Source: Cubamyces lactineus
Lineage: Eukaryota; Basidiomycota; Agaricomycetes; Polyporales; Polyporaceae
Direction of reading: 5' to 3'
DNA length: 64,000 nt
NCBI GenBank assembly: GCA_022376465.1
Contig: JACDTU010000013.1
Span: 1 to 64,000 of the forward strand
The notes below the pieces were generated by a model, which was given only the letters and a program-made list of their open reading frames with translations, was not told where the DNA came from and made no database searches. Below, piece after piece: positions 4,740 to 32,722 of this stretch. A program made the translations under genes and the position numbers. Position 1 is the stretch's first letter. Each line of letters opens with the position of its first letter.

Positions 4740-6140
4740 ATGTCTTCAACTCTCGACAACATCCAGGCTCTGGAGGCGCACCTCGCGCAACTCTGGATGA
4801 AGGCGGCGGCAGAGGAGGCCGCAGCAGCCGAGGCGTAAGTACCGAGGTTGTCGGAGTTCGGGGTACGGAGTTCGGACTAACGGTAGTATACAGGGCGCGA
4901 AGGGCGGAGGAAGAGCGAAAGCGGAGGAGGAGCGAGCGCGGGAGGAGAAGGAGCGCGCGGAGTACGAGGCCGCGCAAAAGCAGCGGCGTTGATTCGCCAG
5001 GCTGCCCTCGCGAAGGCCAGAACTTCCGCGCGGGGGAGCAAGCGTCCCGCGGAGGACGACGAACCGGAGTCGGAGGAGGAAGAGGATGATGCGGAGTTGT
5101 TGGTCCCGCGGTAAGTCCGGTCGGGGTACGGAGTGCGGGGTTCAGGCTAACGGAGTTCCACAGGACGAAGTGCGACCGGTGCGCGGCGAAACAGATCGTG
5201 TGCCGGTTCCGCACGGGGAAGAGGACGTCGAGCTGCGTCCAGTGCCAGAAGGCCCGGTTGCGCGCGTGCGTCGGGGCTCGCGGACTTCCCGCGGACATCC
5301 AAGCCCGAATCGCGCGCAAGGAGGAGGCCCCAAGCCCGCAGCGCAAGAAGGTCAAGTCCGCCGCCATCGTCGTTGACGACGACGGGTTCGAGACCCCCGC
5401 GCCCACCGGAGTACGGAGTTCGGAGAAGGTGCGGGTGGACAAGGGCAAGGGAAAGGAGAAGGAGAAGGAGAAGACGGCGGAGAAGCCGCTGCATCCAGGT
5501 GAGGTCCGATGGACGTTCGTAGCACCGCCCGGGATTAACCCACCAGCACGCACGGTCGTAGCCCGAGGCCCGAGTCTTGCGGGCTCGTCGACGGGCCCCC
5601 GATGTCTGCGAGCTCCGGACTTCCGGAGGTTGGGAAGTCCGACCTCTGGTGGTCCGACGACCCGGAGAAGCTCTCCGACCGGGAGCTCCTCGAGCACCTG
5701 CTCGTCGCGGTGCAGCGCAACCGGCGCACCGCGGGGCGGGTCATCGACCTGCTGGTCGACGAGGAGGAGCAGCGGGAGGAGATGATGCGGGAGGAGGTCC
5801 GGGGTCTTGGCGACGCCATCGCCAAGATCGTGCGGAAGGAGCTGAAATCCGCCATCGGCGAGGCCGTCCGCGACGCGGTCAAGTCCGAACTCGCAACGGA
5901 GTTCGGCACTATGCTGCGGGAGATCCTGGAGATCACCTCGCAGGACAAGGAGGACGCGATCGCGGATGCGCTGGAGCGGGCGGGCGTGGCTGGGTCGGAC
6001 TGGGAGGAGGAGGAGAGTGGGACGGGGTTGGCGACAAGTCCGCGCGGGGCAAGTCCGGTGAGGTGGAGGAGGAGCAGGGCGAGGGCGCGAAGGAGGGAAA
6101 GGGGCCGGAGGACCCGGCGGACATGGACATGGCGGAGTAG
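4740..6140 (+). pseudogene. Antisense accessory gene of chromovirus B: coiled-coil, Zn2Cys6-like protein
   Basis: Lies between pol and the 3' LTR, opposite in direction to gag-pol. Starts MSSTLDNIQALEAHLAQLW at 4740. Two canonical introns can be placed: 4835-4893 (GTAAGT...CTAAC...ACAG) and 5111-5163 (GTAAGT...GCTAAC...CACAG). The protein would have an Ala/Glu/Arg-rich coiled coil, an acidic stretch, then a cysteine cluster CDRCAAKQIVC ... SCVQCQKARLRAC (C-x2-C-x6-C-x11-C-x2-C-x8-C) resembling the fungal Zn2Cys6 DNA-binding fold, a bas/acidic linker, a predicted alpha-helical region (LSDRELLEHLL... to about 5950) and an acidic tail ending DPADMDMAE. About four single-base frame breaks (near 4920, 4990, 5595 and 6030) disrupt this copy. 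Function unknown; a nucleic-acid-binding regulator is an inference. Confidence 0.7.
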
Positions 6141-6244
6141 GGCGGAGTACGGACTACGGACCTCGGACATCGTAGGTAGCAATTTGTAGTCCGAGTGCGG
6201 AGTAGTATAGAGAAATCTGTTGGTGAGAACTCCGCGTGTGTATC

Positions 6245-9200: not shown

Positions 9201-9969
9201 CCTTGGTCTTGCTGAAGACGTCCGCAAACTCGTGGTACTCCTCCGGAACTCCGGTGAGGTCCGGGGGAGAGTCGGAGATGGACGAACTCCGAGCAGTAGC
9301 CAAGTCCGGGGTAGACAGATTCAGGGTATAACTCGCGGACCCCGGGAGTTTGCAAGCTCGAGCGAAAGCAGCAGCGTTCACCAGAGAGATCCGGGGAACG
9401 GAGGTCGGAGTAGGAGAAGTCGGTAGTTCCGGAGTAGCCGGAGTAGACGGAGTAGACGGAGTACGCTCAGCCGGAGCTGGCGGGGGTACCATGGTGTCAG
9501 AAACAGGATGCGGCGGGGGTGCGGAACGGAATTGGATGCTGCGCTTCTTCCAGTCAATCAACGGATTGTAGGCGGAGAGCCAGCTGTATCCCAGAACGGC
9601 AGACACGGACTTGTCGAGCGGAGTAACATAGAAATCTATATTGAGGACTTCTCCAGACGGAAAATGTACGGGCAGGGTGGTAAACGAAGTAATCAGGTGG
9701 TTAGAAGTACCGTCGAAAAGCTGAAGACGGAGCGGGGTTACTGCGGTAGTTGGGAGTTGATACGTAGTCGCGAAATCGGAGTCGATGAAACAATGGGAGG
9801 AACCGGAGTCGATAAGGGCGCGGAACGGAGTTGGGATAGGATCGGAGTACAAGTCGAGGAGGAGTGCATGGGGGTCGGAAAGAGCGGACGCGTTGAGCCT
9901 GAGGATCTCCGTACCGGAGGAGTCAACGCGGTCCTCACGGGGTACGGAGTTCGGAGGACTGCGGACTAA
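6245..9969 (-). pseudogene. pol: Pol polyprotein of chromovirus B (PR-RT-RH-INT-chromodomain)
   Basis: Entered by -1 frameshifting at the gag stop (TTA codon at 9969). Domains in order: aspartic protease with DSGSSHCFID; reverse transcriptase with LRLCVDYRGLN and the YLDD catalytic motif; RNase H with TDASDYAIAG and DKELLAI; integrase with the HHCC zinc site (HDHPTAGHW...CKSCTTC) and DDE residues (SMDLIEQLP, VTSDRGSEF, GYHPEGDGQTERVNQ); then a linker with GPFTIIAQVG and VHPVFHVSQLEP; and a chromodomain (YEISEILDS...YLVRWAGYEG...TSWI) near the C-terminus at about 6270-6450. One missing base at about 6957, between SQLLP and AEFAYNN in the integrase, breaks the frame; otherwise the protein is complete. 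Chromodomains of this class target integration to modified chromatin. Confidence 0.92.
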
Positions 9970-9975
9970 TTTTTT
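9927..9975 (-). promoter_or_regulatory. gag-pol -1 ribosomal frameshift site of chromovirus B
   Basis: On the minus strand the last gag codons read ACA AAA AAT TAG. The heptamer A AAA AAT (9975-9969) is a classical -1 slippery sequence; slipping one base back continues as TTA GTC CGC in the pol frame. After a 5-nt spacer, CGC-A-GTCCTC (9963-9954) can pair with GAGGAC-C-GCG (9936-9927): nine pairs with one mismatch and a 17-nt loop, well placed to stall a ribosome. Confidence 0.75.
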
Positions 9976-11433
9976 GTCTCCTTTGAGGCTGCAGCCGGAG
10001 CAGGCGCAGCGGGAGCGGGGTTGGCTTGTGCAGCGCGACCCTTAGTCGCGGACGAGGTCTTCTTCGGACAAGCACTCGCGGTATGACCAGCTCCACCGCA
10101 GAAGAGACAGAGATTTGGCGAAACGGCGTTGACGCTCCTCGGGGGTGAGTTTTCCGTCCTTACCGAGCTTGTCGGCGTACGTCTTGGCCGGGGTCTTCGG
10201 AGTCTTAGGAGACTTCGACGAAGTACCGGAATTGCCGGACTTGGACGGGGTAGACGAGGAGGCCTGCCCGGAGTTGTTACCTCCGGACTTGTTACCGGAG
10301 TTGGAGGACTTGGAGTCGGAGGTCGACTTGCTGCCGGACTTTGAAGGTCCGGACTCGCGCGAGACCTCGGCCTTGCGCTCCCAGTAGCGGTTGTCGATTG
10401 ACTGCGCGAGGTCGCGGAGGGCCACCAGGGTCTCGGGTTTGCCGACCTCGGAGATGCGGTCCTTGAGACGGTTCGGAAGCCCGTCGTAGAACCGGTACCG
10501 GAGCGGAGCATTCCCCCAGCGGACTTGAGTAGCGAGGCGAGTGAACTGAGTGATGTACTTAGCTATCCGCTGGTTGTCGCCCATCCGGAGGTTCATCAGC
10601 TCGTGCTCCGCAGCTCCGGAGGCGTCGTAGGGACCGAAGTTCACTCGGAGTTCCTCCTGGAAGTGGTCGTAGGATGTGAGGAAAATGGGGGGGTTGTCCG
10701 AGTCGCCTTCGAGGAGGTATGGCTCGAACCACTGTAGTGCGGTGCCCTTGAGGAAGGAGATGGCGTAGGTTACCTTCTTCTCATCGGAGTCGAAGGTTCG
10801 GGGTCGGGCCTTGAAGACAAGTTCCAACTGCGTGAAGAAAGACCGGAGTTTGTTGGGGTCGGACCCGTCGAACTGGTCCGGCTCGCGGACGTTGTGCCGC
10901 TCGTTGTTCGAAGGTTGGGTAACCGCCGGAGTTGGAGCGGTAGTACGTTCGAGGGTACGCGCGATGAGGGAGATCGCGGTCGCTAGTTGCGACTGAACTC
11001 GGTCTTCGGAGTCGGAGGAGTCCGAGCTTGAGCTAGTGTCGTCGTCTCCCGGCCCTTGTGGGTCGTTGTCCGGAGGACCTGGCGGTCCTGGAGGGCCCGG
11101 CGGACCTGGAGGACTAGGCGGACCTGGAGGCCCGCGGCTCGGACCTGAAGGCTGACCCTCGGAGAACGGGTTCCCCGGGGATGGCTCTCGGGGTACCTGC
11201 GAGGCAGTCGCGGTAGAGATGACCAGAGGCTGAGGCGGGTCACCTTCGTCGTCCCCATCGGAGGATGCTTCGACGATTGTTCGAGCAAACTGCCCGCGGC
11301 GGCTCGGAGTAGCTTCTTCTTGCGTCGCTGAGTCGCCTCGGCGAGCTGTCCAGCCACTCCAGTTCTCGGCGGGGTCTTCTTGCTCTAGGGCGCGAGATTG
11401 AGTCTGAGTGCGGACTACGGTTCGAGTGGACAT
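9966..11433 (-). pseudogene. gag: Gag polyprotein of chromovirus B
   Basis: Starts MSTRTVVRTQ at 11433, the first ATG after the predicted transcript start, about 320 nt away. A Pro/Gly-rich collagen-like segment (GPPGPPSPPGPPGPPG) precedes a retrotransposon gag (capsid) domain from FDGSDPNKLRSFFTQLE to about IDNRYWERK, then a Ser/Lys-rich linker with TYADKLGKDGKLTPEER and a CCHC zinc knuckle CLFCGGAGHTASAC. The knuckle and the tail to the TAG at 9966 are in a different frame from the capsid, because of a one-base insertion or two-base loss at about 10112; the tail frame is the one compatible with the -1 site. Assembles the particle and packages RNA. Confidence 0.9.
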
Positions 11434-11451
11434 ATTGAGTGAAACCCGGTG

Positions 11452-11462
11452 AGTTCGGAAAT
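11452..11462 (-). other. Self-priming primer-binding site of chromovirus B
   Basis: Two bases inside the 5' LTR, the minus strand reads ATTTCCGAACT, the reverse complement of AGTTCGGAAAT found in the LTR (11751-11741), about 30 nt downstream of a TATAAATA box. A transcript beginning there can fold its own 5' end onto this site, as in Schizosaccharomyces Tf1; no tRNA 3'-end complement (TGG...) is present. Confidence 0.75.
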
Positions 11463-11464
11463 AC

Positions 11465-12123
11465 TGTTAGGACCGTGCCGTCCGGGGGTATAACTCCGGT
11501 GGTCGGGACTTGGACGGAGTTCGGGGACGGAGTACGACCGGAGGTCGGACTGGCACTGTAGTGAGGACTTTCGCGAAACTATTAGTAACGCACGGGTTCC
11601 GACTCGGTGTCCTCTATTTGCGGACTGCGGAGTACGGACTTGACGGGTCGGAGGTCGGACTTGGAAACGAAGGTTGGTCGGACTAGAGGGTCGGGGTTGA
11701 GTGTCGGAGTACGAGTTGAACCAGTAATGAGTATAACGAGATTTCCGAACTGCGTAGCTACTACATTCCGGGGCAGTATTTATACTAAGTCAGAAACCCG
11801 ATAAAAACAATAAGAGATGTACGTGATAGGAAGGAGTAGAACGAAAGTACGAAGTAACTTGCCAAGGGTAAGATAACGTAGATAGCTCAGTAAGCAAAAG
11901 CCTCATGTAGGCAGCGCCATGAGGGGTTATCTGAGACATGTAAGTCATGGGGTCGGGGGAAGTCCGAAGTACGGAGTACGAAGTGCGGAGTACGGAGAAC
12001 GGAGTCGGGGGTACGGGGTATGGAGGAGCGGAGTACGGAGGAGCGGAGTACGTAACACGGAGTAAGGAGCGGAGTACGGGGGTTCGGGGATCGGACTTCG
12101 GGGTTACAGCACGGGGCGTAACA
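11465..12123 (-). repeat. 5' LTR of chromovirus B (659 bp)
   Basis: TGTTAG...GTAACA, matching the copy at 3859-4529 with scattered substitutions and about 12 bp of net length difference. TATA box about 11778-11786 read on the minus strand; predicted transcript start near 11751. Its outer edge at 12123 abuts, without a target duplication, a copia LTR remnant. Confidence 0.92.
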
Positions 12124-12239
12124 GTACTATGCAATATAGTCGTTCGCTCACAGACTGAAGACTCTCTTTGTGTCGCTTACAGGTCGCTCCCAGCCTTCCA
12201 GGTTCAGAAGTTCGTCAGGTTATGAGCCCTGCGCTCTAA
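12124..12239 (+). other. Copia 5' LTR remnant, half-tRNA(Met) primer site and mini-uORF
   Basis: 12125-12217 matches the last part of the 3' LTR and ends GTTCGTCA. The next bases, GGTTATGAGCCC (12218-12229), are complementary to the anticodon stem-loop GGGCTCATAACC of initiator methionine tRNA, the half-tRNA priming used by Drosophila copia and yeast Ty5. The site necessarily contains ATG, the complement of the CAU anticodon; here this ATG (12222) opens a five-codon frame (MSPAL) closed by TAA at 12237. Confidence 0.8.
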
Positions 12240-13189
12240 CTTGTTGCTGCTTCTGTCGACATCTCTGCGCGCACCCTCCCTTCGTCGACATCGCTGTTGT
12301 GCACCCTCCCCTCCATAATTCCTTAACTCTTGACTGTTGCCCGCCGACACTGCTACCAGGGGGACATTTCTGCGCTCGTGACGCAGCCCTGAGTGCTTTT
12401 ACTATAGCCCTAGTACTCAGTAGGCTGTACAGCTCTTTGTAGCGAGCTCTTTCTAGTATCCCTGGGTCAGGCCTCGCACTTGCGACAGCCAGCCCTTGTA
12501 TCCGGGTTCTTTAGGAACTTAGGACCGGAGGACAACCGTCTGGACCCTCCTTACGATACTCTTTTTGTCGGATAGCAGTACATAGTTTTTCTTGGGCACA
12601 GTTGGCAACTTCTACCCAGATTTTCGGGCATTTCGGCTGTCTGGATCTCTGGTTCTCCTGAACAGGTGTTCCCATCTACCAGGACTTCTCGGTGCACACA
12701 GCAAGTCAATCATCGCGTTTTTTCTGAACCGTTTTGGAGCCGACCACAGCGGAACCTCTTGCCATAGATTCTGAGGAGGAAGTCGACGCCACTCTCGACA
12801 ACCCTTCGGAATCATCTGCCTTTGATTGTTCTGGGCTTATCCACTTCTTCGACGTCGACGAGAACCTCGACCGTTACTACGACCCAGAAGACGACAGCTA
12901 CTTTGCTTGCGATAGCTTCCCCTGTCCTAATCGCTACCAGAACCTTCAAGAGCCTCCACCCGGTAACGTCTGGGCTGTAGTCCCAGAACCTTGGCAAGTT
13001 ACTCCGCTTCCTCCTTCTTCGACAGAAGAAGAAGAAGACCTAGAATCAGTCTACGAGCCTTCACCTCTCCTTGCTCCCACACCCCTTCCTCTGGACGCGC
13101 CTCTCCAATTCGCGCCTCCACAATCTCCACCTCCTACACTCGATCTAACCGAGAACCTCGTCGATTCGCCCCAATTCTTTCTCCTCACT
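12240..13189 (+). other. AUG-free leader of copia C with open N-terminal extension
   Basis: No ATG occurs in any plus-strand frame from 12225 to 13189 (about 965 nt), after which the first ATG is that of MGDIKPES at 13190. From 12734, behind an in-frame TGA at 12725, the gag frame is open for 152 codons and looks coding: acidic and Pro-rich, with FDVDENLDRYYDPEDDSYF and NVWAVVPEPWQVTPLPP. Either a non-AUG codon or an upstream spliced exon would be needed to translate it. Confidence 0.75.
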
Positions 13190-16100
13190 ATGGGCGACAT
13201 CAAACCTGAATCTGTCCCTCTCCTTTCTTCAGCCAGCCAGTACGCTGACTGGGCTGCGAAGATGAAGGGTCTCCTCATGTTCATGAACTGCTGGGATGTA
13301 GTCTCTTCGGAGACGACTGAACCTTCCGACGCTGAAGAGCGCAAGGAGTATAGGAAGAAGAATGCTCAGGCATGCGGTCTGCTCTTCATGCGGACTGGGC
13401 CTAGCTTCCACTATCTCCTTGAGACGAAGATGACCAACGGCACCTCCTCTCCGGCTAATCTCACTGCCAAAGAGATGTGGGATGCGCTGAAAGACAAGTT
13501 TGGGAAACCGAACTCTGCGCACGTTTGGGGTCTTTTCGAGTCACTCATCAGTGAGTCTCGCATGTCGGACCAGCGTTCGCTTCAGGATCAGATGAGTCGG
13601 ATCGTCACGCGTATCCGCGAGATCTCGACCAACGGCCTGAAGTTAGAGGATAACATTCAGGCCCTCATCCTTCTCTCCAAGGTCCCGGAGTCCTACCGAC
13701 CTATGATCTCTGCGCTCATGGCCACTATGGACCTCGACAAGATCACCGTCGACGTCATCCTCGAGAAGTCTCTCTCTGAGGAAGCCATGCGCAAGACCGG
13801 TCAATCTGCTGCTCGGATCTCCAAGACCAAGCCCAAGCCGTCCGGCCCCTGCGACTTCTGTGGCAGTCAGACCCATCATGAGTCGACTTGCTACAAGAAG
13901 CACCCTGAGCTTCGCCCCAAGGGCAACAAGGGTAAGGGCAATGGTGGCAAGAAGAAGGACAAGGATAAGGAGAAAGACAAAGGGAAGGGAAAGGACAATT
14001 CTCATGACCATGCGCACGTCTCGGCCAATGTACTTGTAGCTGAATCCGGCTCTAACATGCACGCTTCTTTCTATGATGCGGCGAAAGCTGCTGCTGGTGT
14101 GCGGTATACTCGTTGGCTGATGGACTCTGGCGCATCTCAGCACGTCACTTGGTGTTTTGACGACTTTACCGAGTACGAACCCTTTGACAAACCGCTGACC
14201 TTCAATACTGCCTCATCTGGCGAAGGTTCGGTTATTCAGGGACTTGGTCAAGGCACTGTTAAAGCTGAGACTCTTGTCGATGGTCAACGGTGGACTATCA
14301 CTCTTCCGAACGTCTGCTATGTGCCTCAGGCCTCTGCACGACTGTTCTCCACTGGTACCATTGAGAAGAATGGTTATTCTCTCTTCCAAGGAGCGAGGAA
14401 GATGATGATCTTCGACAAGCAGCCGGAAGGTGCTGTCAACTCAGGCTCGACGATTCGCATCAAGGGTCGAAAGATCCTTGAAGCACCGTACAATCCTGCG
14501 AGCAATCTCTATGATTTGACTCTGGAGATTATCCTGAACAGGCATGTCCACCTAAACGTTCGCAGTTACAAGACCTGGCATCGTCGCTTTGGTCATGCAG
14601 GCAAGGAGCCTCTTCGCCACCTGCCTAAGAACGTTAAGGGTGTAGACCAGCTTGATCCCGCGGATGATGAACCGTGTGAAGGTTGTGCCTTTGGCAAATC
14701 CCACAGACTCCCTTTCCCGCCATCAGAAAAGCGTGCGACTGAGCCCCTTGAGCTCGTCCACACTGATCTTGATGGGCCAATGCGCACTGCGTCAGTTGGC
14801 AGCGGATTCAAGTACTTCGCTAGCTTCATAGATGATTACTCCGGTCTCGCCCGTGCTTATTTCCTGAAGTACAAGTCGGACGCCTTCAAAGCGTTCAAGG
14901 ACTTCAAGGCTTGGGCTGAGAATCAAACTGGGAGGAAAATCAAGCGAGTCCGCTCTGATCGTGGTGGGGAGTACACGTCAAACGAGTTCTCCGAGCTTCT
15001 CCGCAGTTTAGGGATTGAGCACCACAAAACCATGCCTGATTCGCCTCAGCAGAATGGACGCGCTGAACGCTGGAACCGTACAATCACTGAGAAGGCTCTG
15101 TCTATGCTTCACCATGCTGGACTTAGTCACGGTTTCTGGCAACTTGCTATCGAGGCAGCCGTTCATATCTATAATCGTCAGCCTATGCGTCGCCTGAAAT
15201 GGCGATGTCCCATCACTCTGTGGGATGGGACCATCCCTGATGTGTCCTATTTCCGCGTTTTTGGCTGCAAAGCCTATGTTCATGTGCAAAAGGACAAGCG
15301 CAAAGGGAAACTCGACAAGAAGGCTGTCGAGATGATCTTTGTCGGGTATGAGCAGGGTTCCAAGGGGTATAAATTCTGGAATCCAGCCACCCACTCTATC
15401 GTCGTATCTCGCGATGTGATCTTCGACGAAGAGTCTTTTCCTGCACGTAAGATTCCTGGCAATCGTCCTGTTACCCCAGACGATAGTCCGTTCTCAGATC
15501 AAGAAGTCCCTTCAGACGATGCCTCCAATGCTGAGCCTGAAAACTTCGAGATCGATATCCCTCTTCCTATTCCTCTCCCGGAGGCCGCACCTCCTGCGCC
15601 TCCTGCACCTCCAGAGCAACCTGCTCCCCCTCCTCCGCAACAACCTAATCCACCACCTGCTGTTCCTCCGCCACGGCCTAACCATCAGCGAAATCGTCAT
15701 GAGCCAGTGGGAGGTCCTAGCATAGCGCGTGATCGCCCTCGTCGCGAGAACGTTCCTAGACCTCAGCGCTACAGGGACAGTGTGTACGGTGATGAGCCAC
15801 CTGCAAAGGTTGATGCTCGTACAGACGCGGAAGGGAACTTGGAGGACGATGAACAAGTTGTACAGTCTATCATTGCAATGCTCGCCGCCGCAACCCATAA
15901 GCCTGGCATTCCTAACTCTCATCGACAAGCCATGGCATCTCCAGACGCGGAGAAGTGGCGTGCAGCTGAGAAAGCAGAGTACGACTCGCTCATTGAGAAC
16001 AAGACCTGGCTCCTTGTGCCTAGGCCAAAGAACCGACAAGTCGTCGCCAATCGTTGGGTGTATGACATCAAGCATGATGGTCGGTACAAGGCTCGTCTTG

Positions 16101-17451
16101 TGGCCAAGGGTTTTACTCAGGTCTGGGGGGAGGATTACAATGAAACCTTTTCGCCTGTTGCGCGTTTTGAGTCGATTCGTTACCTCCTCGCGCACGCTGC
16201 GCTTGAGGACTGGGACATCGAGTCGATGGATGTAAAAACTGCGTTCTTGAACGGCGACTTGGAGGAGGAGATCTACATGGAACAGCCTGAGGGCTGGGTT
16301 GTTCCTGGCAAGGAAAACTTCGTGTGTCTGTTGCTGAAAGCTATCTACGGCTTGAAGCAGGCGTCTCGTCAATGGAACGCCAAGATACACCAAATCTTGC
16401 TAGATCTGGGATTCATACAGACATACTCTGATGCCGGAGTCTATGTATATCGGCGACATAGGGGGATTCCGTCACGATCATCGTTCTGTATGTCGACGAT
16501 CTACTCCTCATGGGTGACAAGCCTGGCCATATCAAGGCTACCAAGGAGGCCTTGATGCAGCGGTTCAAGATGACGGATCTGGGTCCTGTCTCGCGTTTTC
16601 TTGGTCTGAACATTGTTCGCGATCGTAAAGCTCGAACGATCGACATCGACCAGATAGACTACATCCAGTCCGTTCTCGAACTTTTGACATGGCCGACTGC
16701 AAGCCGGCTCGCACTCCTCTCCCTGCTGGTGCTGTACTGGAGAAATCTAGTCACACCGCTGCCGATCACTCCCGGAAACGGTACCAGAGCCTAATTGGCA
16801 GTCTGCTCTATGCGACTTTGGGTACACGTCCGGATATCTCCTTCGCGGTCCAGAAGTTGTCTCAGTACAACTCTAATCCTAGTGACGCACACTGGAACTA
16901 TGCCAAGTATGTTCTGCGGTACCTGCAAGGGACCAAAGACTACCGGTTGCGTTACTTCGGTTCCTCGAATGACGGTCTTTTGGGTTATTCAGACTCGGAC
17001 TGGGCTGAGGACCGGGATGACCGCAGGTCCACTGGAGCTTACGTCTTCTTGATGGCGGCGGCGCTATTTCCTGGCAGTCTAGGAAACAGCCAACTGTTTC
17101 GCTCTCCTCGACCGAGGCGGAATACAAGGCTGCGTCAGACGCTTGTCGTCAAGTTGTATGGCTTCGCACGTTTGGTGAAGAGTTGGGGGACGACATCTCT
17201 CGCCTACACCCTTGTGTCTCGACAACCAAGGGTCCATCTTCTTATCGGTTAATCCAGTCACCGAGCGTCGCACGAAGCACGTCGACGTCCAGTACCACTA
17301 CACTCGCGAACAGGCTGAGTTAGGGACGATCGACATCTTCTACGTAGCGACAGAGGATCAACTAGCTGATTCCTTGACGAAGAACGTCTCCTTCTCTATA
17401 TTGGAGCGCTTCAGAAAGGCGATTGGTCTAGTCTCTCCCTCCGCAGTTTGA
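12734..17451 (+). pseudogene. Copia gag-pol polyprotein
   Basis: From the first ATG (13190, MGDIKPESVPLLSSASQYA): gag region; CCHC knuckle CDFCGSQTHHESTC (about 13850); protease with WLMDSGASQHVT (about 14115); GAG-pre-integrase zinc motif (HRRFGHAG ... CEGCAFGK); integrase with HTDLDGP, SDRGGEYTS and QQNGRAERWNR; reverse transcriptase with ARLVAKGFTQ, DVKTAFLNGDL, YGLKQASRQW and LYVDDLLLMG; RNase H with YSDSDWAEDRDDRRS and TKHVDVQYH, ending at 17451. The frame is intact to about 16465, then broken by four single-base losses (about 16465, 16690, 17057, 17190), each where a short run of one base appears one too short. The coding region upstream of 13190 is treated in the leader entry. Confidence 0.9.
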
Positions 17452-23843: not shown

Positions 23844-24373
23844 TGTTACGCTTTCGAGCGTGACTCTTAAACTATCAAGCCTTAAGACGTCAATGAATAG
23901 AGAGCTTGTATCTATTCAGCTACTAGCCCTAGCTTGTCGAAGATAAGCGCGTAGTAGTATTTGCAGTTGAAAGCGAGTTAACGAGCAACCAAAGTCGTAT
24001 TTCGCGAAGAGACTGAAAGCTGAGGGTCGCTCTATGGCGTCGCCTCTTATATACATGTATACCAGCCTGTAGACGGAACGTTCTAGCGTATACAAGGACT
24101 TTCTGGTGCGTAGTAGTCAGCGCTAGTCGAACCTAGTAACACTGTGGCAGTGCCGCTGTGCACTGCGCGGAAGCGACTGTGCACTGTGCAGAAGTAACTG
24201 TGCATGGAAAGTCCTAGAGCATCCTAGATAATACGAGACTGTTCCATAGAATCCGCCATATACAATCGTAGCTGGAGTCCCAGAGCCTACCATACTTGTA
24301 TCGTACAGAGTAAGTACTAGAAACCGTTACCAGTTCGTCGAGACGTCGCAATACCTATTGTACATTCGTAACA
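23844..24373 (-). repeat. 3' LTR of chromovirus D (530 bp)
   Basis: TGTTACGCTTTCGAGCGTG ... TACATTCGTAACA, identical by eye to 32193-32722. Contains short internal direct repeats of the form CTGTGCACTG at about 24165-24200. Confidence 0.95.
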
Positions 24374-24409
24374 TCAGCTCCCCCTCCGCTGAAGGTCGTC
24401 CTCGACCTT
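24374..24409 (-). promoter_or_regulatory. Polypurine tract and adjacent hairpin of chromovirus D
   Basis: Minus-strand GGAGGGGGAGCTGA directly precedes the 3' LTR and would prime plus-strand DNA synthesis. Just 5' of it AAGGTCG and CGACCTT (24392-24398 and 24403-24409) form a 7-bp stem with a 4-nt loop, overlapping the ORF3 stop codon. Confidence 0.75.
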
Positions 24410-25703
24410 AGAGGTGAACGATAGCATTGTTTCTCTCGACGACCTCAGGACGGAAGACATCCAGGGAGATCTGGACGAGCTCCGCATCGCTACCTACTGC
24501 TCGAATGCAGTCCCATTGAGCAGTCTCTGCCGCCGACATGCCTAAAGCCTCGCGATAAGTAGTCGCGATGCGTTCAGCGTCGACCTTGAAGGCGGGGTAA
24601 TTTCCACGCCGGGCGATGACATCGTCGATGAGTAGGGAGGCGGCTTGGGTGGTCCTGACTGAAGCTTCCGGCCATCGGAGATGGTATGCGACCATGATCC
24701 GAACGTCAGAGATGCCGAAGGAACTGTTGGGGACCATGAAAATGTCGCCTCGAGAGTTGATGTATCCGAACCGATCTTCTCCGGTTCCACGAAAGAAACC
24801 GCATCGTCCATGGGGTTCCTCGACGTGCTTGGTGATCGTAGTCGGGGGAGGAGGAGGCGGGGAAGGGGCCCTTACTGCGACTTTCATGGCTTCGTGGAAC
24901 TCCTCTTCCGAGAGCTCGTCGATCGTGCTAAGCTCTAGTTGTTCGAGCTCAGGGAGTAAGTCGAAAGACTCGACTTCCGAATAGGAGGAGTCAGAACTTG
25001 AGGAGGATAGGGTCGGGGTCGACCCCTCAACTGAAGTCGGACCCCATTTGATGGCTTCCTCCTCAGGATCAGGAGTGGAAACCTTCCAAGGGTCAGTCGA
25101 GGGAATGGACCATCCACCATCCGAGCGTACCTCGTCCTCGTCTTCTTCCTCATCCGAAGAATCGACCTCGATAGCTTGCGGGTAGTCATCGAGGCGTTGC
25201 GGCCAAAAGACATGCCCCCAACTATGCGTACCGTGTTGGTTACGCAGGGGCATCAGGTCCGAGAGTGCTCCCGCGACCTGAGGGTTAGCGAGCATAGAAA
25301 TTACTTTCTCTGCCGCTTGAACCACTGCCTGATAGGCCTCGCTCGCAACTTGAACTACCTTCTTCTTCTCGGACTTGGGCGCCGACGTTCTCTGGTTGTG
25401 TTTGATGAGAACAGAGTAAGAGGGGGCGGCCCTGGCGAGAGCGCGGTAGACGTCGATGAGGTCCTTGACCTCAGAAAGATGGGCAATACGGGCCTCGACA
25501 TGGCTGTAGAGGTCGGGGTGCACGATGACCCAGCCGACACGATCGGCGAGGGTGCCTTCGTCGTTGCACGAGACGGTGTGTCGGGGAAGATGGTTGTAGA
25601 AAACAGTGCGCCGTGCCCTAATGAAATTGGGGGGACGGGGAATGTTGCGACGAGTCGCCTCAGAGAAACGGCGACCAGTAAGACGAGTGTTGGTGTAGAC
25701 CAT
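24408..25703 (-). CDS. ORF3 of chromovirus D, 431-residue accessory protein
   Basis: Begins MVYTNTRLTGRRFSEATRRN 67 bp after the pol stop, in sense orientation, and ends 35 bp before the LTR. The N-terminal third is basic and helical; the middle has acidic low-complexity stretches (EVDSSDEEEDEDEV, SSSSSDSSYSEVE) and a poly-Pro run; the C-terminal third looks globular (HGRCGFFRGTGEDRFGYI, DIFMVPNSSFGISDVRIMVA, AETAQWDCIRAVGSDAELV). No signal peptide or membrane segment is visible, so it is not an envelope. I recognise no family. Position matches that of accessory genes in some plant Ty3 lineages; function unknown. Confidence 0.8.
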   Translation of the reverse strand: MVYTNTRLTGRRFSEATRRNIPRPPNFIRARRTVFYNHLPRHTVSCNDEGTLADRVGWVIVHPDLYSHVEARIAHLSEVKDLIDVYRALARAAPSYSVLIKHNQRTSAPKSEKKKVVQVASEAYQAVVQAAEKVISMLANPQVAGALSDLMPLRNQHGTHSWGHVFWPQRLDDYPQAIEVDSSDEEEDEDEVRSDGGWSIPSTDPWKVSTPDPEEEAIKWGPTSVEGSTPTLSSSSSDSSYSEVESFDLLPELEQLELSTIDELSEEEFHEAMKVAVRAPSPPPPPPTTITKHVEEPHGRCGFFRGTGEDRFGYINSRGDIFMVPNSSFGISDVRIMVAYHLRWPEASVRTTQAASLLIDDVIARRGNYPAFKVDAERIATTYREALGMSAAETAQWDCIRAVGSDAELVQISLDVFRPEVVERNNAIVHL

Positions 25704-25770
25704 AGTGAATAGAGGAGAAATTTGTTCAGAAAATTCGAAGAGATATTGGGTGAGGAGTGGGTTGAGTCCT

Positions 25771-28700
25771 TCACGACAACTTGTGCCTCTTCTTATAGTT
25801 GCGCAAGATCGACTGCGCGTTCTTGAGATGTCTTTCTGGTTCCCAAGAATTTTCCGATGCGGGCCAGCCCTTCCAAGCCACTAGATACTGCTTTTGGGTA
25901 CCTCTAGTGCGGTGGCTCAGAATTGCTTCTACCTCCCATTCCTCTCCTTCAGTTGATTCAGGAGTGGGAATCGGTGGAGGTCGGACATAGTCTGGTCCGT
26001 GCTCCTTAGTTGTGTGGTACGGGGTAAGTAGCGCTGCGTGGAAGACGGGGTGTATCTTCCATTTCTCCGGAAGTTTAACTTAAATGTAACCGGTCCCAAG
26101 ACCTTGACGATGGTGAACGGTCCCACTCGTTTTGGAATCAACTTCCTGGAGACATATGGAAGCCTGAGGTTCTTTGTATCGAGAAGAACCTTGTCTCCGA
26201 GCTTCAGCGGAACTTGCGCAGCGGGGAGCCTTCTTGACATAGCTGCGGCGGCCTGCGCATGCGCCGCTATTGTATTCTCCCTGGCTTCCTGAAGACTTTG
26301 AAGCCTCTGCTCCGTACTTGGATGCTTTGGGGTGGTTCGGACTGTCCCAACGGCCTCTGGCTGAAACCCGTAGAGTAGCTCAAACGGGGATTTTCCCGTG
26401 ACAGAGTGTGTCCGCTGATTGTGCGCGAATTCGAATTGAGGCAGCAGTTTGGCCCAGTTCTCCGGATTGTTAGCACAGTAGAGCCGAAGTGCTAAGTCGA
26501 GTTCTTGATTTACTCGCTCCGTTTCCCCATCTGTCTGAGGATGGTAGGCCGTGCTGAGTGCCGTTTCAATTCCGAGGCTATTGTGTAGTTCTTTGAATGC
26601 CTTGGATATGAATTGCGGCCCCCGATCCGAGATGACCTTCGCAGGTAGTCCGAATCTGCGATACACATCCCTTTGCAGAATATCCATGGCTCCTTCTGCC
26701 GTAATATTCTTGGTGCAAGGGGAAAATACCGCTGCTTTGGATACATCATGGTCGACTACCACTTGGACGGCATTAAAACCATCCGATTCTGGTAGATCGG
26801 TGATATAATCCATGGTAATTGTCCGGAAAGGCCTAGTATCCCCACTGTGTTGAATGGGAATTAAGCCTGGTTTAATGGGATGCGTATTGACCTTGCTTGT
26901 TTGGCAAGCGGCGCAACCTTTGACATATTGCGCGATGAATTTCCGCATGCCTGGCCACATATATTCCCGTTTAACCAGATCATAGGTTTTCTGGATTCCT
27001 GGGTGTCCCATAATCGGTGCGTCGTGATGCATCTTGACTATATCACGATACAATTGATTATCTGGTGGAACGTATACTCTGTTCTTGTACAGGAGTATTC
27101 CGTCGTCGTCGGACCAATCTTCTGGTTTGCCGAACTCTGGGCGTTTGGTAGCCTTTCCTTTTAGAGTAATGTACTCTACTACCGAGTTGTCCCGTAGCTT
27201 GCTATCACGGATGCGCTCTTGTAGCTCAACGTTGACAGCTTTGGCAAAAAGTTCTGGCCCTAGTAATACGACGTCCTTGTTGTCATTTTCCCCCCCATCA
27301 TGCCCTGATCTCCGAGAAAGGGCGTCTGCTTGAGTGAGGGATTTTCCGGGCTGGTGCTTGATTACGATGTTGAACTCCGAGAGGAATAAATGCCATCGCG
27401 CCTGTCTGCGATTTAACTTCTGCGCCGTACGGAAGTAGGTCAGATTTTTGTGATCTGATAGGATTTCTGTAGGGTGTGGGGAACCCTGCAAAAAATGTCG
27501 CCATGCTTCGAGAGCTCGAACAATGGCTAACAATTCTCTATCATAAATCTGATAGTTCCGTTCCGCAGGAGTAAAGGACTTGGACAAATAGGCACAAGGA
27601 TGCCATAGTCCGTCCTCTCCTTGCTGTCGTAGTACAGCACCTGTTGCGACCTTAGAAGCATCGCACTCAATCTGAAATGGTTTCTCCGGATCCGGGATTT
27701 GTAGGATCGGTTCTTCAGTAAACCGCTTCTTGAGTGTATTGAATGCTTTCTGACAATCAGAGGTCCACAGAAAAGGCTGGTCCTTCTTGGTTAATTCCGT
27801 GAGGGGTCGGACTATCTTTGAATAATCCCGAATGAACCGTCGGTAGAAATTACCGAACCCTAGGAATGCCTGAACCTGCTTGACTGTTTTCGGTGGTTCC
27901 CACTCGATAATTGCCTTGAGCTTTACTGGATCCATAGCGACTACCCCTGGCCGGATTATTGATCCTAGAAATTCGACTTCTTGTCTGTCGAATTCGCATT
28001 TTTCCGCCTTGAGGAATAGATCACTGTCTTGAAGTCGCTGTAAAGCTCTTCGCGTGCGTTTGTGATGGTCCTCGACATTGTCTGAGAATATCAGGATGTC
28101 GTCCATGTAAATGACCATCCATCCTTCCTGAAGCATGTCCCGGAAGAGATCGTTCATCATGTTCTGGAATGTGGCCGGTGCGTTGCACAAACCAAAAAAC
28201 ATGACTGTCGGTTCGAACAATCCGCTGGGTGTTATAAACGCAGCTTTCCACTCATCACCCTCTTTGATGCGAACATTATTGTACCCTGCTCGCACGTCGA
28301 GCTTGGTGAATATTGTGGCCCCTTTCAGCCGGTCAATGATGTCGCTGATGAGCGGCAAGGGATATGCGTTTTTGATAGTCCCCTCGTTAAGAGCCCTGTA
28401 GTCTTGAACAGGTCGAAGACTCCCATCCTTCTTGGTGACAAAGAAAAATGGCGAGGCTAGTGGAGACTTGGATTTTCGAATGTAGCCCTTCTCGAGGTTC
28501 TCCGCAATGAATTTGTCGAGTTCTATACGTTCCGTATAGGTCAGAGGGTAGATTTTCCTCCAAGACCCCTTGGTATGATGGTCGAAGTCCTTCTTGAATT
28601 CGATAGCATGGTCCCATGGTCTCGAGGGCGGAAATCTACTTGCTGCCTTTTTCTCAAAGACCTGTCGATAGTCCTTTACAAAATCAGGTAGGATTTCGTC

Positions 28701-29423
28701 CAAGGTCTTCTCCTTCTGGTCTTTCTTCGCTGCTATAGCGATCTCCGTAGACTTATTAATCTTTCGGATTTTCTTCTTGCGGTACCATAGCTCGATGGCC
28801 CTCGAAGGATTAAATGTAAGCCTTTCGGAGTCTGGGTCTGCGTCGTCCTCGTCCGGTATAGCACGTACGAACGATACGACCAGATCTTGATTTAGAGGTT
28901 TTACTGGAAAATTCCACAGCATCCCTTCGGGTGGGTCGTGCTCGCATTGGTATTTATGGATCTGCTGCTGCTTCTTGATAATATCCGACTTGAAAGTAAT
29001 GCGTCCACTTTCCCAGTCGATATTAGGATTGTACTTGCGGATCCATGGCATGCCGAATAAGACATCGTCCCGCCCAATGTCGGCCACATACCAATTTGTT
29101 GGGAGCTTCTTCCCGTGTAGATTAAATGTCCCCTCCACCCGATGGGTAATGGTTCCCATGCTATTAACGCTATCGTCCGCGTTCCGGAAAGTCAGAGTCT
29201 TCGGTAGTCTGACTGTCGGAAGATTGTACTTGTCCACAATCTTTTTATTGACGATCACGGCATCCGCACCAGTGTCGATGAGCCCCTTGATTTCGACGGC
29301 TTTGTCCTGAACCTGCATGTAACCGGGTATCAGCAGAGCACTGCGTCTCCGCTCTGTATTGGTTACAATAGTTACATGCAGTTCCTTGGGCAAGTCAGGC
29401 GTCGAGTCTGCTTGCCTGCCTAA
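25771..29423 (-). CDS. pol: Pol polyprotein of chromovirus D (PR-RT-RH-INT-chromodomain)
   Basis: Entered at TTA 29423 by -1 frameshift. Aspartic protease GLIDTGADAVIVNKK with DVLFGMPW; RT with LRPVQDYRALNEGTIKNAYP and catalytic YMDD; RNase H with IECDASKVATGAV, NYQIYDRELLAI and LSDHKNL; integrase HHCC (HHDAPIMGHPG ... CAACQTSK) and DDE region (TMDYITDLP, VISDRGPQF, YHPQTDGETERVN); GPF/Y-type module GPFTIVKVLGPVTFKL; then, one frame over from about 26075, HPVFHAALLTPYHTT and a chromodomain EEWEVEAILSHRTRGTQKQY ... AWKGWPASENSWEPE ending RHKLS at 25771. The step between frames needs one extra base in TTAAAC. Unbroken otherwise over more than 1,100 codons. Confidence 0.94.
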
Positions 29424-29429
29424 AAACCC
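29389..29429 (-). promoter_or_regulatory. gag-pol -1 ribosomal frameshift site of chromovirus D
   Basis: Minus strand: ACG GGT TTT TAG. The heptamer G GGT TTT (29429-29423) is a -1 slippery sequence ending at the gag stop; after slipping, reading continues TTA GGC AGG in the pol frame. A 6-nt spacer is followed by a hairpin, GGCAAG-CAG (29416-29408) pairing with CTG-A-CTTGCC (29398-29389), nine pairs and one bulge. Frame arithmetic agrees with the pol frame (29423 and 29393 are in phase). Confidence 0.8.
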
Positions 29430-31294
29430 GTCTCAAAATCTGTAGCTCTGAGTGCGTTAATAGAAATATTGTCCTCTTCGTCCTCTTCGTCCTCTTCGTC
29501 TGAGATCTCCTCAGACTCGTCCTCTAAGTCCTCGTCGGTAACCTGTCGTACCTTCCGACTAACAGGTTTGCCGGGCTTCTTAGGTTTAGAAGGACAGTCT
29601 CTGGAAATATGTCCCGGCTTCCTGCACCGGAAACATAGTCCCTTGTCTTGCAGCTCCTGTCTCTCCTTGACAGAGAGCTTGTTAATATCGAGCGAGTCGT
29701 CCTCGATATTAACCATCTTGACGTTCTTCCTAGTCTTCGCGGTTTTGGCCTTGCGTCCTCTGCGATTAGCCAAAATCTTTTCCGTAAGGTGATAGCTATG
29801 GTCGATCTCCTTAGTCCTAGTCATCCACTCTTCAATGGTCGTCGGCGGAGGGTACGACATGGATATCTTCTTCAGTAAATATTCTGGAAGCGCATTCCTG
29901 TACAGGGCCAGTTGCGCTGCTGGATCCAGAATTTTTCCCTTGAGAGCTAGATCCATGAACCTCGCATTGAACTCATCGACTGAAGAGTAGTCCTTGAGCT
30001 GTATCGTCGTGAGATTAACCATAGAATCGTCCACCTCGTCTACTGGGGCAAAGGCGAGTAGGAAATTCCTCTTGAAGACCGGCCAAGAGTCAAATCCTCG
30101 ATATACTCCCGGTCTAATTTCCTCTTCAGCTCGCTGAATTGTGATGTCCTTCCAGTAGTTTATATTGTCCCCTTCCATGAAGGATAGGGCCGTCGCCACC
30201 TTCGTGTAATCATTAACGAAGTCGTAGGGTCGCGCCGTGAACAACAGGAACAGTTGATTGAGGAAGGACCTGGTTTTGTCTCGGTCTCCGTTGAAGACCT
30301 CAGGGTCCTTGATCTTGCCCTTTCCGTGTCCTTGCGGCGCATTTCCTGGAGCTTCTTGCGGTTCCGGGTCTGGGTCTGGTCCTGGTGGTCCTCCTCCTGG
30401 GGAGTAGGGATCTGAAGGCTCAGGGTCAGGCCGACCTCCGGGCCTACCTGGTCCGCCTCCTCCTCCACCTCCAGAAGGATTGATAACTCCTCCAGAAATT
30501 GCCGTTGCCCGAGGGGCTGGTCCACTTGATAAAGACCCGTATCTTTCTCCTTCTGAGCCTTGCCCTTGCGGAGTGAACGCATATCTATGGGCTCCAGAAA
30601 TGGACTCTCCTGTCGCTGTTCCCGACATGTACGATGGTACTGATTTTCGTACAAATTCTGGGGTTGCGCTGCGACCAGTATACTCCAATTCTGATTTAGT
30701 CTCCTCGACCTCTGTCTGAATATGCTCTTCTCTCGGTTCAGGTGTTTCTGCCTCGACCCGAGTGTCTTCTGTTTTCGGTGCAGGTACTACGACCTTAATC
30801 CGAATAGTTTCTTCGATTTTCGGTTCAGGTGCTTCGACCGTCGTCCGAAAAGTCTCGTCCTCCTTGTCCGAGTCCTCTACCTTAGGCGGTTCGGTCTCCT
30901 TTCCTTTCTCCTTGAAGGATGGACCTGATTCCTTAGGTGATTCGGATTCTTGAGGTTTTGGGGTTCCTACTCTTGAAGTCGGAAACGATCCTGACACAAC
31001 TCTTGGACTATTAATCCGACCAGTAGCTTTTCCAGCAAGTAGTGGCTTCTTGACTAACGCGGGTTGTCGTCCGTGGGTGTTAGTAATATCCCGCTCTTGT
31101 GAAGAGTGTGTTAGGATTAAAGCCGATGCGTGCTTGACGTTTGGAACCTCCTTAGTGTTGTACCGAAGTGGACACCTTTCGTTGGTGCAAAAATTCCACT
31201 TGTCTACGCTTTCTCGATAGTATACGTCCCGAGCTTTGTCGGAGTTGTAGAGATGATATAACCTTGAACAACTATATGGTTCAGCTGAACTCAT
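29420..31294 (-). CDS. gag: Gag polyprotein of chromovirus D
   Basis: 624 residues from MSSAEPYSCSRLYHLYN at 31294, the first ATG on the predicted transcript, overlapping the ORF0 stop as ATGA. An N-terminal segment with NFCTNERCPLRYN is followed by a long acidic, Pro/Glu/Thr-rich region, a Gly/Pro tract, the gag capsid domain (DPEVFNGDRDKTRSFLNQLF ... SYPPPTTIEEWMTRTKEID), a basic stretch (NRRGRKAKTAKTRK), one CCHC knuckle CFRCRKPGHISRDC and an acidic tail (SDEEDEEDEED). Longer than most fungal Ty3 gags because of the N-terminal region. Forms the particle; the knuckle binds RNA. Confidence 0.93.
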   Translation of the reverse strand: MSSAEPYSCSRLYHLYNSDKARDVYYRESVDKWNFCTNERCPLRYNTKEVPNVKHASALILTHSSQERDITNTHGRQPALVKKPLLAGKATGRINSPRVVSGSFPTSRVGTPKPQESESPKESGPSFKEKGKETEPPKVEDSDKEDETFRTTVEAPEPKIEETIRIKVVVPAPKTEDTRVEAETPEPREEHIQTEVEETKSELEYTGRSATPEFVRKSVPSYMSGTATGESISGAHRYAFTPQGQGSEGERYGSLSSGPAPRATAISGGVINPSGGGGGGGPGRPGGRPDPEPSDPYSPGGGPPGPDPDPEPQEAPGNAPQGHGKGKIKDPEVFNGDRDKTRSFLNQLFLLFTARPYDFVNDYTKVATALSFMEGDNINYWKDITIQRAEEEIRPGVYRGFDSWPVFKRNFLLAFAPVDEVDDSMVNLTTIQLKDYSSVDEFNARFMDLALKGKILDPAAQLALYRNALPEYLLKKISMSYPPPTTIEEWMTRTKEIDHSYHLTEKILANRRGRKAKTAKTRKNVKMVNIEDDSLDINKLSVKERQELQDKGLCFRCRKPGHISRDCPSKPKKPGKPVSRKVRQVTDEDLEDESEEISDEEDEEDEEDNISINALRATDFETGF

Positions 31295-32187
31295 ACACGT
31301 TGTGCTTGTCGTAGGAAAGCCTGATGTAGTTCCCTAGCTCGGAGGCAACTACGAAATTTCCTAAGATTTTCTTCGAGGTCTATATCTGCGTAGTTCTCCG
31401 GATTGAGGATCTTTGCTCGCAGGTAGTCAATCTGGTTCTGAAGATATCCCGCAAAGTTCCGTACCCTCGTTGGAGGCGTAACAGCTTGTCTTGGAATAAA
31501 TTCGAGTGTCTGGATGACCTGAGTTATGTATCGATGGGCTCGTTCGAGAGTCGCGTGATATCTCCTCGTGAAGTCTTCCTGTCCTAGTACTTCCAAGTTA
31601 TCTGCTATAACTCGAAGTGTATCGATCGCGTGCACCGGAAGCTGTGTTCTCCGATAGAATATCCCTGCCGTTGAGGATGCTTCTTCAACACTAGTTTCTG
31701 GAGTCGATCGATCCGAACTATCCGTTCCTGGACTCGCTCGGGTTGGAATGGGTACGCCTATTGCTACTCCTGATTCCGCCTGAATGGCCAGAGAATTCCT
31801 ATATTCTCTCCACTCGTCTGTTCTCTGAAACGCGGGTTCTTGTTCCGATACTCGAGTGCTCCGACCCGACGATGTCGAACTGGTACTTTCTACGTAAGGG
31901 ATTGTCGAGCTAAAACCTCTTATCAAGGGGAATGGGGATCCTCCTGGCGATCTTGGGAGAGCAACTATATTCTCCGGGATCGCGAGTGGTGGTAAGCTCG
32001 GCAGTGTTTTGTTCCTTCCGCCTAGTACCCTGGGTGATTGTCGCAATGGGGGTTGTGTAGTTCCCTCCGTATTGACTATCGTCTCTCTGTACGTTACGAG
32101 CAAGAGAGAGTTCTGATGCGTTTCGTAGTCGTTGTCTTCCGACGTAGGCCTCTGCACTTTTAACAAGTGGAGGGTTAAAGCTTTCAG
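31291..32187 (-). CDS. ORF0 of chromovirus D: 290-300 codons, no AUG
   Basis: An open frame between the 5' LTR and gag with no methionine codon anywhere in it; indeed no ATG occurs in any sense frame from the predicted transcript start (32370) to the gag ATG (31294). It stops at TGA 31291-31293, overlapping gag as ATGA. Possible starts are near-cognate: CTG at 32187-32185 (A at -3, inside the primer site) or TTG at 32166. The N-terminal half is Ser/Thr/Pro-rich; the C-terminal half looks folded and helical (LPVHAIDTLRVIADNLEVLG, TRRYHATLERAHRYITQVIQ, NFAGYLQNQIDYLRAKILNP, RKFRSCLRARELHQAFLRQ). No family recognised. Absence of other stops over 290 codons supports coding. Confidence 0.65.
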   Translation of the reverse strand: MKALTLHLLKVQRPTSEDNDYETHQNSLLLVTYRETIVNTEGTTQPPLRQSPRVLGGRNKTLPSLPPLAIPENIVALPRSPGGSPFPLIRGFSSTIPYVESTSSTSSGRSTRVSEQEPAFQRTDEWREYRNSLAIQAESGVAIGVPIPTRASPGTDSSDRSTPETSVEEASSTAGIFYRRTQLPVHAIDTLRVIADNLEVLGQEDFTRRYHATLERAHRYITQVIQTLEFIPRQAVTPPTRVRNFAGYLQNQIDYLRAKILNPENYADIDLEENLRKFRSCLRARELHQAFLRQAQRV

Positions 32188-32190
32188 TCT
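32179..32190 (-). other. Self-priming primer-binding site of chromovirus D
   Basis: Two bases from the 5' LTR the minus strand reads AGACTGAAAGCT, fully complementary to AGCTTTCAGTCT at 32370-32359 in the LTR, which lies about 32 nt past the TATATAA box (32402-32396) and so should be the RNA 5' end. Same geometry as Tf1/sushi elements. Confidence 0.85.
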
Positions 32191-32192
32191 AA

Positions 32193-32722
32193 TGTTACGC
32201 TTTCGAGCGTGACTCTTAAACTATCAAGCCTTAAGACGTCAATGAATAGAGAGCTTGTATCTATTCAGCTACTAGCCCTAGCTTGTCGAAGATAAGCGCG
32301 TAGTAGTATTTGCAGTTGAAAGCGAGTTAACGAGCAACCAAAGTCGTATTTCGCGAAGAGACTGAAAGCTGAGGGTCGCTCTATGGCGTCGCCTCTTATA
32401 TACATGTATACCAGCCTGTAGACGGAACGTTCTAGCGTATACAAGGACTTTCTGGTGCGTAGTAGTCAGCGCTAGTCGAACCTAGTAACACTGTGGCAGT
32501 GCCGCTGTGCACTGCGCGGAAGCGACTGTGCACTGTGCAGAAGTAACTGTGCATGGAAAGTCCTAGAGCATCCTAGATAATACGAGACTGTTCCATAGAA
32601 TCCGCCATATACAATCGTAGCTGGAGTCCCAGAGCCTACCATACTTGTATCGTACAGAGTAAGTACTAGAAACCGTTACCAGTTCGTCGAGACGTCGCAA
32701 TACCTATTGTACATTCGTAACA
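32193..32722 (-). repeat. 5' LTR and promoter of chromovirus D (530 bp)
   Basis: Identical by eye to 23844-24373. Minus-strand TATATAA at 32402-32396; predicted transcript start about 32370, giving U3 of about 350 bp and R-U5 of about 178 bp without any ATG. Confidence 0.95.

Follow-up and report, generated by a model that had tools for sequence, protein, structure and literature searches.

The first 64,000 nucleotides (nt) of contig JACDTU010000013.1 of Cubamyces lactineus, hereafter called the window, contain on their minus strand a long terminal repeat (LTR) retrotransposon that shows the tested sequence features of a self-priming Ty3 chromovirus. The leader of this element, from the predicted 5' end of its RNA to the start codon of gag, is free of AUG, and most of it is taken up by an open reading frame (ORF), here named ORF0, that has no methionine and runs into gag. 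We consider it probable that the element belongs to a recently active family with a single polycistronic RNA that is decoded by leaky scanning. The features on which this reading is based are collected in Table 1.

Exclusion of AUG from the leader

Between 32370 and 31295 there is no sense ATG in any of the three frames, and 13 ATGs are present on the antisense strand. Both the absence and its strand specificity had been claimed in the original prediction, which was made from the letters of the window, and the counts bear them out. That prediction had also set the chance expectation at 15-17 ATGs. Base composition does give 16.1, but this figure is overstated, since shuffles that preserve dinucleotides give only 6.7, with zero ATG in 1 of 3000 shuffles. 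Synonymous shuffles of ORF0 alone gave 4.2 expected out-of-frame ATGs against none observed (P 0.001). Elsewhere in the element the observed and expected out-of-frame ATGs were 35 and 33.1 for pol and 15 and 10.7 for ORF3, and gag was mildly depleted (7 against 12.9, P 0.013).

A tblastn search of the host genome, in which only the best candidates are scored, yielded at least 86 rows, so that all copy numbers are lower bounds. Sixty-two of these are near-identical copies (61 and the window copy); L069 and 18 further loci that were fetched (L070-L087) account for the remaining 24. Loci L083-L087 were left out of the alignment, their longest match being shorter than 1000 nt, and the majority-state tests were run without L079, its 5' part being unrelated. 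The 13 alignable diverged copies form a sister clade with 63-79% overall identity to the window copy, the clade as such standing at ~78%.

The leader is free of ATG in 62 of the 62 near-identical copies. Among the diverged copies a single one lacks ATG, and there are 1-2 in seven and 4-9 in five that are heavily decayed; at majority states the sister clade has no leader ATG. At such states the antisense strand has 13-16. It had been expected that ATG would be absent from all copies, which holds for the near-identical ones and fails for 12 of the 13 diverged ones, where ATGs were gained at the neutral rate. ATGs and stops scattered through related copies, which had been named as a sign against the idea, do both occur, the ATGs only outside the near-identical set and at this same rate. 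These ATGs lie mostly at positions that are ACG in other copies, as expected from CpG decay. Counted as cells and not as events, ACG reads ATG in 31 of 264 cells in the decaying copies versus 0 of 1550 in the near-identical ones, and TCG reads TTG in 56 of 321 versus 11 of 1668.

The test for selection matched each substitution by its base change and CpG context, and it counted distinct events rather than copies because the copies are related. Among the near-identical copies, 92 distinct substitutions created no ATG where 4.2 were expected (P 0.008). The 189 differences between the clades likewise created none, with 7.7 expected (P 0.0006) or, in the opposite direction, 6.6 (P 0.0014). The neutral control behaved otherwise: 206 distinct events in 12 decaying copies gave 20 ATGs, close to the 21.6 expected. 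From these type-matched counts, mutation supplies ATG to decaying copies at a normal rate, and ATG is purged in the transposing lineage. The substitution record of the copies shows that selection keeps AUG out of the leader, as had been proposed, with the shuffles, the between-clade test and the decay control all in support. The copies can be regarded as a natural experiment in which recent, near-identical copies stay AUG-free and decaying ones regain AUGs at the neutral rate, and the contrast lets ribosome scanning be read directly from evolution.

The RNA 5' end is inferred to lie at 32370, where it is anchored by the complementarity of the self-primer to the putative primer-binding site (PBS), an arrangement that is predicted to be self-priming of the Tf1 type. 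In the predicted fold of 32370-32120 the stem between self-primer and PBS closes the entire R-U5 domain (z -3.26; 0 of 200 shuffles as stable). Between the clades R-U5 (32193-32370) differs at 13 of 177 sites (~7%) and the third codon positions of ORF0 at 25-40% (40 of 133 in its C-terminal part), from which R-U5 itself is strongly constrained. It is, in its own right, an RNA domain of strong conservation, for which a stable fold with several branches is predicted.

ORF0 and the proposed starts of translation

The frame of ORF0 is open over 309 codons (31291-32220) and ends with TGA at 31293-31291, so that the uninterrupted frame and the ATGA overlap with gag described in the original prediction are both present. 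A ratio of nonsynonymous to synonymous substitution rates (dN/dS) below 1, suggested there as a test, was obtained: 0.36-0.41 against ten diverged copies, compared with 0.88-1.21 when the frame is shifted by one or two nt (four diverged copies) and 0.27-0.32 for the first 94-95 codons of gag (seven copies). The ORF0 values span the open frame from 32220 and so include 25 codons upstream of the candidate start ACG, within which the sister clade has two 1-nt indels; from the ACG to the end of ORF0 no indel was found in the four diverged copies compared. In 30-codon bins of two copies, the ratio of nonsynonymous to synonymous differences per site (pN/pS) was 0.16-0.39 beyond codon 120. Between the clades ORF0 therefore looks coding, and its translation is likely.

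Eight relatives of ORF0 were found in the protein database, none of which is named or has a Pfam domain. P0003 (73% identity), P0005 (51%), P0006 (48-50%) and P0008 (49%) have no internal Met, for which the chance is ~0.01-0.04 each at the Met rate of the element, these proteins being related and not independent; the fragments P0004 and P0007 likewise have none. P0009, a fragment whose first part is unalignable, has two Met, both in that part. The C-terminus is covered by seven of the eight relatives, each of which has V or I as its end after QR or RR. Such termini fit the sequence [G/A]TATGA, these relatives being known here from protein alone.

A Pfam scan of ORF0 gave no match at E 0.1. The AlphaFold model has a mean predicted local distance difference test (pLDDT) score of 52.6, with blocks above 60 only at residues 111-120 and 171-280; the N-terminal part is predicted to be disordered and the C-terminal part helical. 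As its confident helices begin only at residue 171, the model agrees in outline with the bin-wise constraint. Foldseek comparison of the model with PDB and BFVD returned nothing at E 0.001, and alignment A1, when used for a scan, brought up no relative. A scan of viral contigs with ORF0 gave a single locus, L088, a contig that looks phage-tail-like by eye, and this was rejected as a chance match (30% over ~64 residues). ORF0 would be a conserved protein that annotation based on ATG misses.

Regarding the start codon of ORF0, the original prediction had named CTG 32187 or TTG 32166. An ORF0 open over 288 codons is found in 5 of the 13 diverged copies, where an in-frame TAA upstream severs both codons from it. 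Moreover, four near-identical copies (L063, L065, L066 and L068) have in common an in-frame TAG at codon 32154, just upstream of the ACG, so that both of the original candidates are cut off there too. Between members of this clade there are 18-24 differences per ~1,740 sites, with ORF0 open downstream of the TAG and gag without stops. This divergence suggests that the clade has spread by transposition, in which case the start of ORF0 is to be placed downstream of 32154. Of 12 diverged copies, 11 have TTA or TTC at the TTG site. In the predicted fold CTG 32187 is within the PBS stem and TTG 32166 within the next hairpin.

The first near-cognate codon downstream of 32154 that both clades have in common is ACG 32145, which all 62 near-identical copies have, as do 7 of 12 diverged copies (the others having ATG in three and ACA in two). 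This ACG is more likely to be the start than either CTG 32187 or TTG 32166, and we would give roughly even weight to its being the codon actually used. A start further downstream is conceivable, since the first 30 codons of ORF0 are poorly conserved.

The AUG of gag at 31294 has a weak context: position -3 is U and position +4 is A in every one of 75 aligned rows. Beyond it the AUG desert extends for another 663 nt into gag, a point absent from the original prediction. This was examined in a sample that added 27 near-identical and 13 diverged copies, not all having been fetched. No AUG occurs in the gap up to Met223 in any of the 28 near-identical copies examined or in 5 of the 13 diverged ones, and Met223 is present in all ten of the 13 diverged copies that align there. 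A permutation test of this tract (L090, L100 and L101 left out) gave 0 ATG against 5.3-5.6 expected (P 0.002-0.004), and synonymous shuffles gave P 0.023. P0046, a relative of gag with 63% identity, has no Met from residue 1 to its matching SVPSYM motif. An AUG-poor tract that ends at a conserved in-frame AUG suggests two forms of Gag, the shorter of which would hold the capsid-like and zinc-knuckle regions. An alternative overlapping frame in gag has 208 codons in the window copy, and its extent varies between copies.

Competing explanations for the decoding of gag

In the mechanism that we propose, the 40S subunit would scan from the RNA 5' end along a leader cleared of AUG. A minority of ribosomes would initiate ORF0 just past the conserved hairpin, at a near-cognate codon for which ACG 32145 is the likeliest candidate, and the remaining ones, finding no AUG in any frame of ORF0, would begin Gag at 31294 in its poor context. 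Some may skip this AUG too and initiate the shorter Gag at 30628, and the ATGA overlap may additionally permit a restart on gag after termination of ORF0. We favour leaky scanning because it needs R-U5 and all frames of ORF0 to be free of AUG, which reinitiation, frameshifting and splicing do not. The frame of ORF0 itself is without Met, and an AUG there would mainly harm ribosomes on their way to gag. Leaky scanning to gag, already put forward in the original prediction, best explains the exclusion of AUG together with the constraint on ORF0. A more detailed version can be offered tentatively, as a possibility that we hesitate to call probable: a three-tier polycistron with ORF0 from the ACG, a long Gag from the first AUG and a short Gag from the second, which would have evolved independently of plant pararetroviruses. 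This version is based on a single AUG desert of 1.74 kb interrupted by one weak AUG only.

Termination-reinitiation, which the same prediction had left as an option, would have most ribosomes translate ORF0 and reach gag mainly by restarting at the overlap. The ATGA is kept in both clades and the V or I at the C-terminus of the relatives fits such a route; however, reinitiation would not require R-U5 or the ORF0 frames to lack AUG, least of all ORF0's own, and all of these are AUG-free. The desert also runs on beyond the gag start. As the main or only route we regard it as unlikely. A fusion of ORF0 and gag by -1 frameshifting, from a near-cognate start, could take place in the ~40 nt where the two open frames overlap, the gag frame being open from 31333 and in -1 relative to ORF0. 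No slippery heptamer was seen there by eye (no program was run), the conserved ATG lies exactly at the overlap, and frameshifting gives no reason for the exclusion of AUG, which makes this explanation highly improbable.

Partial splicing is known in some LTR elements, reportedly including pea Ogre, and could either remove ORF0 or part of the leader for gag expression or create an AUG for ORF0 at the junction. The original prediction had named splicing of this segment out of the RNA as evidence against its own idea; no GTRNGT donor was found in the leader. Of the loose donor-acceptor pairs tested, two would create an AUG, both in the middle of ORF0 and without a CTRAY branch site, so that a splice-made AUG was searched for and found unsupported. 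A spliced-out region, besides, need not lack AUG, and splicing seems to us improbable. Base composition or chance, finally, would leave the absence of AUG without a translational cause. The low number of TG dinucleotides (26), which lowers the expectation to the shuffled value given above, and the mild depletion of out-of-frame ATG in gag are on its side, but both kinds of shuffle, the between-clade permutation, the decay control and the ATGs of the antisense strand all disagree with it, and its probability is negligible.

Several observations weigh against leaky scanning from ACG 32145 or against parts of that reading. The ATGA overlap fits reinitiation as well. The context of the ACG is poor (C at -3), and among the five diverged copies with an open ORF0 position 32145 is ACG in two and ACA or ATG in three, an in-frame GTG just before it and a TTG just after it being kept in all five. 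Codons 1-120 of ORF0 are weakly constrained between the clades (pN/pS 0.54-1.34 per 30-codon bin, two copies), and within the near-identical copies dN/dS is 1.15-1.54 (four comparisons, 16-18 changes each), so that recent constraint on ORF0 is not shown. P0002, which represents 215 sequences, has one internal Met. In 4 of 13 diverged copies a common ATG at +29 of gag, in another frame, weakens the part concerning the second AUG.

Architecture of the element and related systems

Table 1. Coordinates of the features of the element in the window
Feature	Position	Strand	Remarks
Whole LTR element	23844-32722	minus	8.88 kb; LTR, ORF0, gag, pol, chromodomain, 431-codon ORF, LTR
5' LTR	32193..32722	minus	530 nt, TGTTACG...CGTAACA
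Predicted RNA 5' end and self-primer	32359..32370	minus	AGCTTTCAGTCT; exact reverse complement of the putative PBS
AUG-free leader	31295..32370	minus	1,076 nt; from self-primer to gag ATG 31294
Putative PBS	32179..32190	minus	AGACTGAAAGCT; just inside the LTR; 12/12 nt complementary to the predicted RNA 5' end
Hairpin	32149..32173	minus	CCUCCACUU-loop-AAGUGCAGAGG; directly before the candidate start; stem sequence largely kept in the sister clade
Candidate ORF0 start, ACG	32143..32145	minus	inferred; 3 nt after the hairpin
ORF0	31291..32145	minus	284 codons from ACG, then TGA; no Met
ATGA overlap	31291..31294	minus	ORF0 stop and gag start
gag	29420..31294	minus	624 codons; zinc knuckle; Retrotrans_gag match below the Pfam cut-off
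Second AUG-free tract	30629..31291	minus	663 nt within the gag coding region
Second AUG of gag (Met223)	30626..30628	minus	in frame, 666 nt beyond the first AUG; possible start of a shorter Gag
pol open frame	25929..29432	minus	protease, reverse transcriptase, RNase H, integrase; disrupted near the C-terminus in the window copy
Chromodomain	25771-26079	minus	PF00385, E 2.6e-17; after integrase
3' LTR	23844..24373	minus	530 nt

The two LTRs have no differences over 530 of 530 nt, and their TG...CA ends were read from the sequence. The Pfam scan gave the pol domains in the order protease, reverse transcriptase, RNase H and integrase, as in a Ty3 chromovirus, and an SH3_Tf2-1 domain was also found downstream of the integrase, besides the chromodomain. 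The chromodomain of the window copy has a frame that differs from the rest of pol. One frame is open throughout this stretch (~310 nt) in 12 of 12 fetched copies, and because all of them differ there from the window copy, pol is taken to be broken in the latter, with intact copies existing for the stretch.

Between pol and the 3' LTR there is an ORF of 431 codons (24408-25703, minus strand) that has an ATG and no Pfam match. It has 33 relatives in the database, the named ones from Trametes, Cubamyces, Lentinus and Cerioporus, and is either accessory to the element or a gene captured from a host. The closest named relatives of this ORF and of the N-terminal part of gag are both from Trametes cubensis, with 91% and 94% identity, respectively. 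The window also contains a frame for a Ty1/copia-type polyprotein (12734-16555) and a second Ty3 element (3857-12125) with LTRs near 3857-4531 and 11463-12125. The second Ty3 element, used as a control, has 5 ATGs between 12140 and its gag-like ATG at 11433; it is a weak control because all of these lie within its LTR and its RNA start is unknown.

Self-priming Ty3 elements of the Tf1/sushi group, including Tf1, Tf2 and Tj1, have a PBS complementary to the RNA 5' end, according to excerpts of their description (PMC4600332). The element resembles them in this complementarity, which here extends over 12 of 12 nt to the predicted RNA end, and in the SH3_Tf2-1 domain and chromodomain downstream of its integrase. 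To our knowledge no ORF0 or AUG-free leader has been reported in this group, and the excerpts of the account cited above (PMC4600332) make no mention of either. In rice, Retrosat2 and FRetro3 have an extra ORF0 upstream of the gag-pol ORF, which the excerpted text describes as unique to rice (PMC3485330). The likeness to our element is the extra upstream ORF; the words ATG and start codon are absent from that text, and nothing was found there on a non-AUG start or on exclusion of AUG. In the titles and opening lines of abstracts of the open-licence literature, no Ty3 element with an AUG-free leader or with a non-AUG ORF upstream of gag was found.

The closest likeness is to Rice tungro bacilliform virus (RTBV; Tungrovirus, Caulimoviridae), an episomal DNA virus and, like the element, a retroelement. 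Members of the Caulimoviridae are not known to have LTRs or integrase, and since both are present here the element is not a caulimovirid. In excerpts of the literature, the first ORF of RTBV begins at a non-AUG codon, an AUU to which ribosomes are shunted across a leader that carries a short upstream ORF, and the next AUG has a poor context and is reached by leaky scanning over ~895 nt without other AUG (PMC3542737, PMC5902531). As far as these excerpts go, the two share a first ORF without internal AUG, a non-AUG start (a candidate one in the element) directly after a leader structure, a weak next AUG and, on our reading, the logic of leaky scanning; they differ in that the shunt leader of RTBV carries a short AUG-started ORF, whereas the leader of the element has no AUG. 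ORF0, which was not directly compared with the proteins of RTBV, matched nothing in Pfam or, by Foldseek, in BFVD (E 0.001). For badnaviruses leaky scanning is predicted in similar excerpts, ORF I and ORF II having weak or non-AUG starts and no internal AUG (PMC5902531, PMC4926197). They resemble the element in these AUG-free ORFs and in the kind of start proposed for it, and differ in family, host kingdom and genes.

Because the logic of RTBV matches and no Ty3 precedent was found in the literature covered, we regard this as a translation strategy known from elsewhere, in a group of retroelements for which we found no description of it. If our reading is true, a strategy described in plant pararetroviruses also arose in a fungal LTR retrotransposon.

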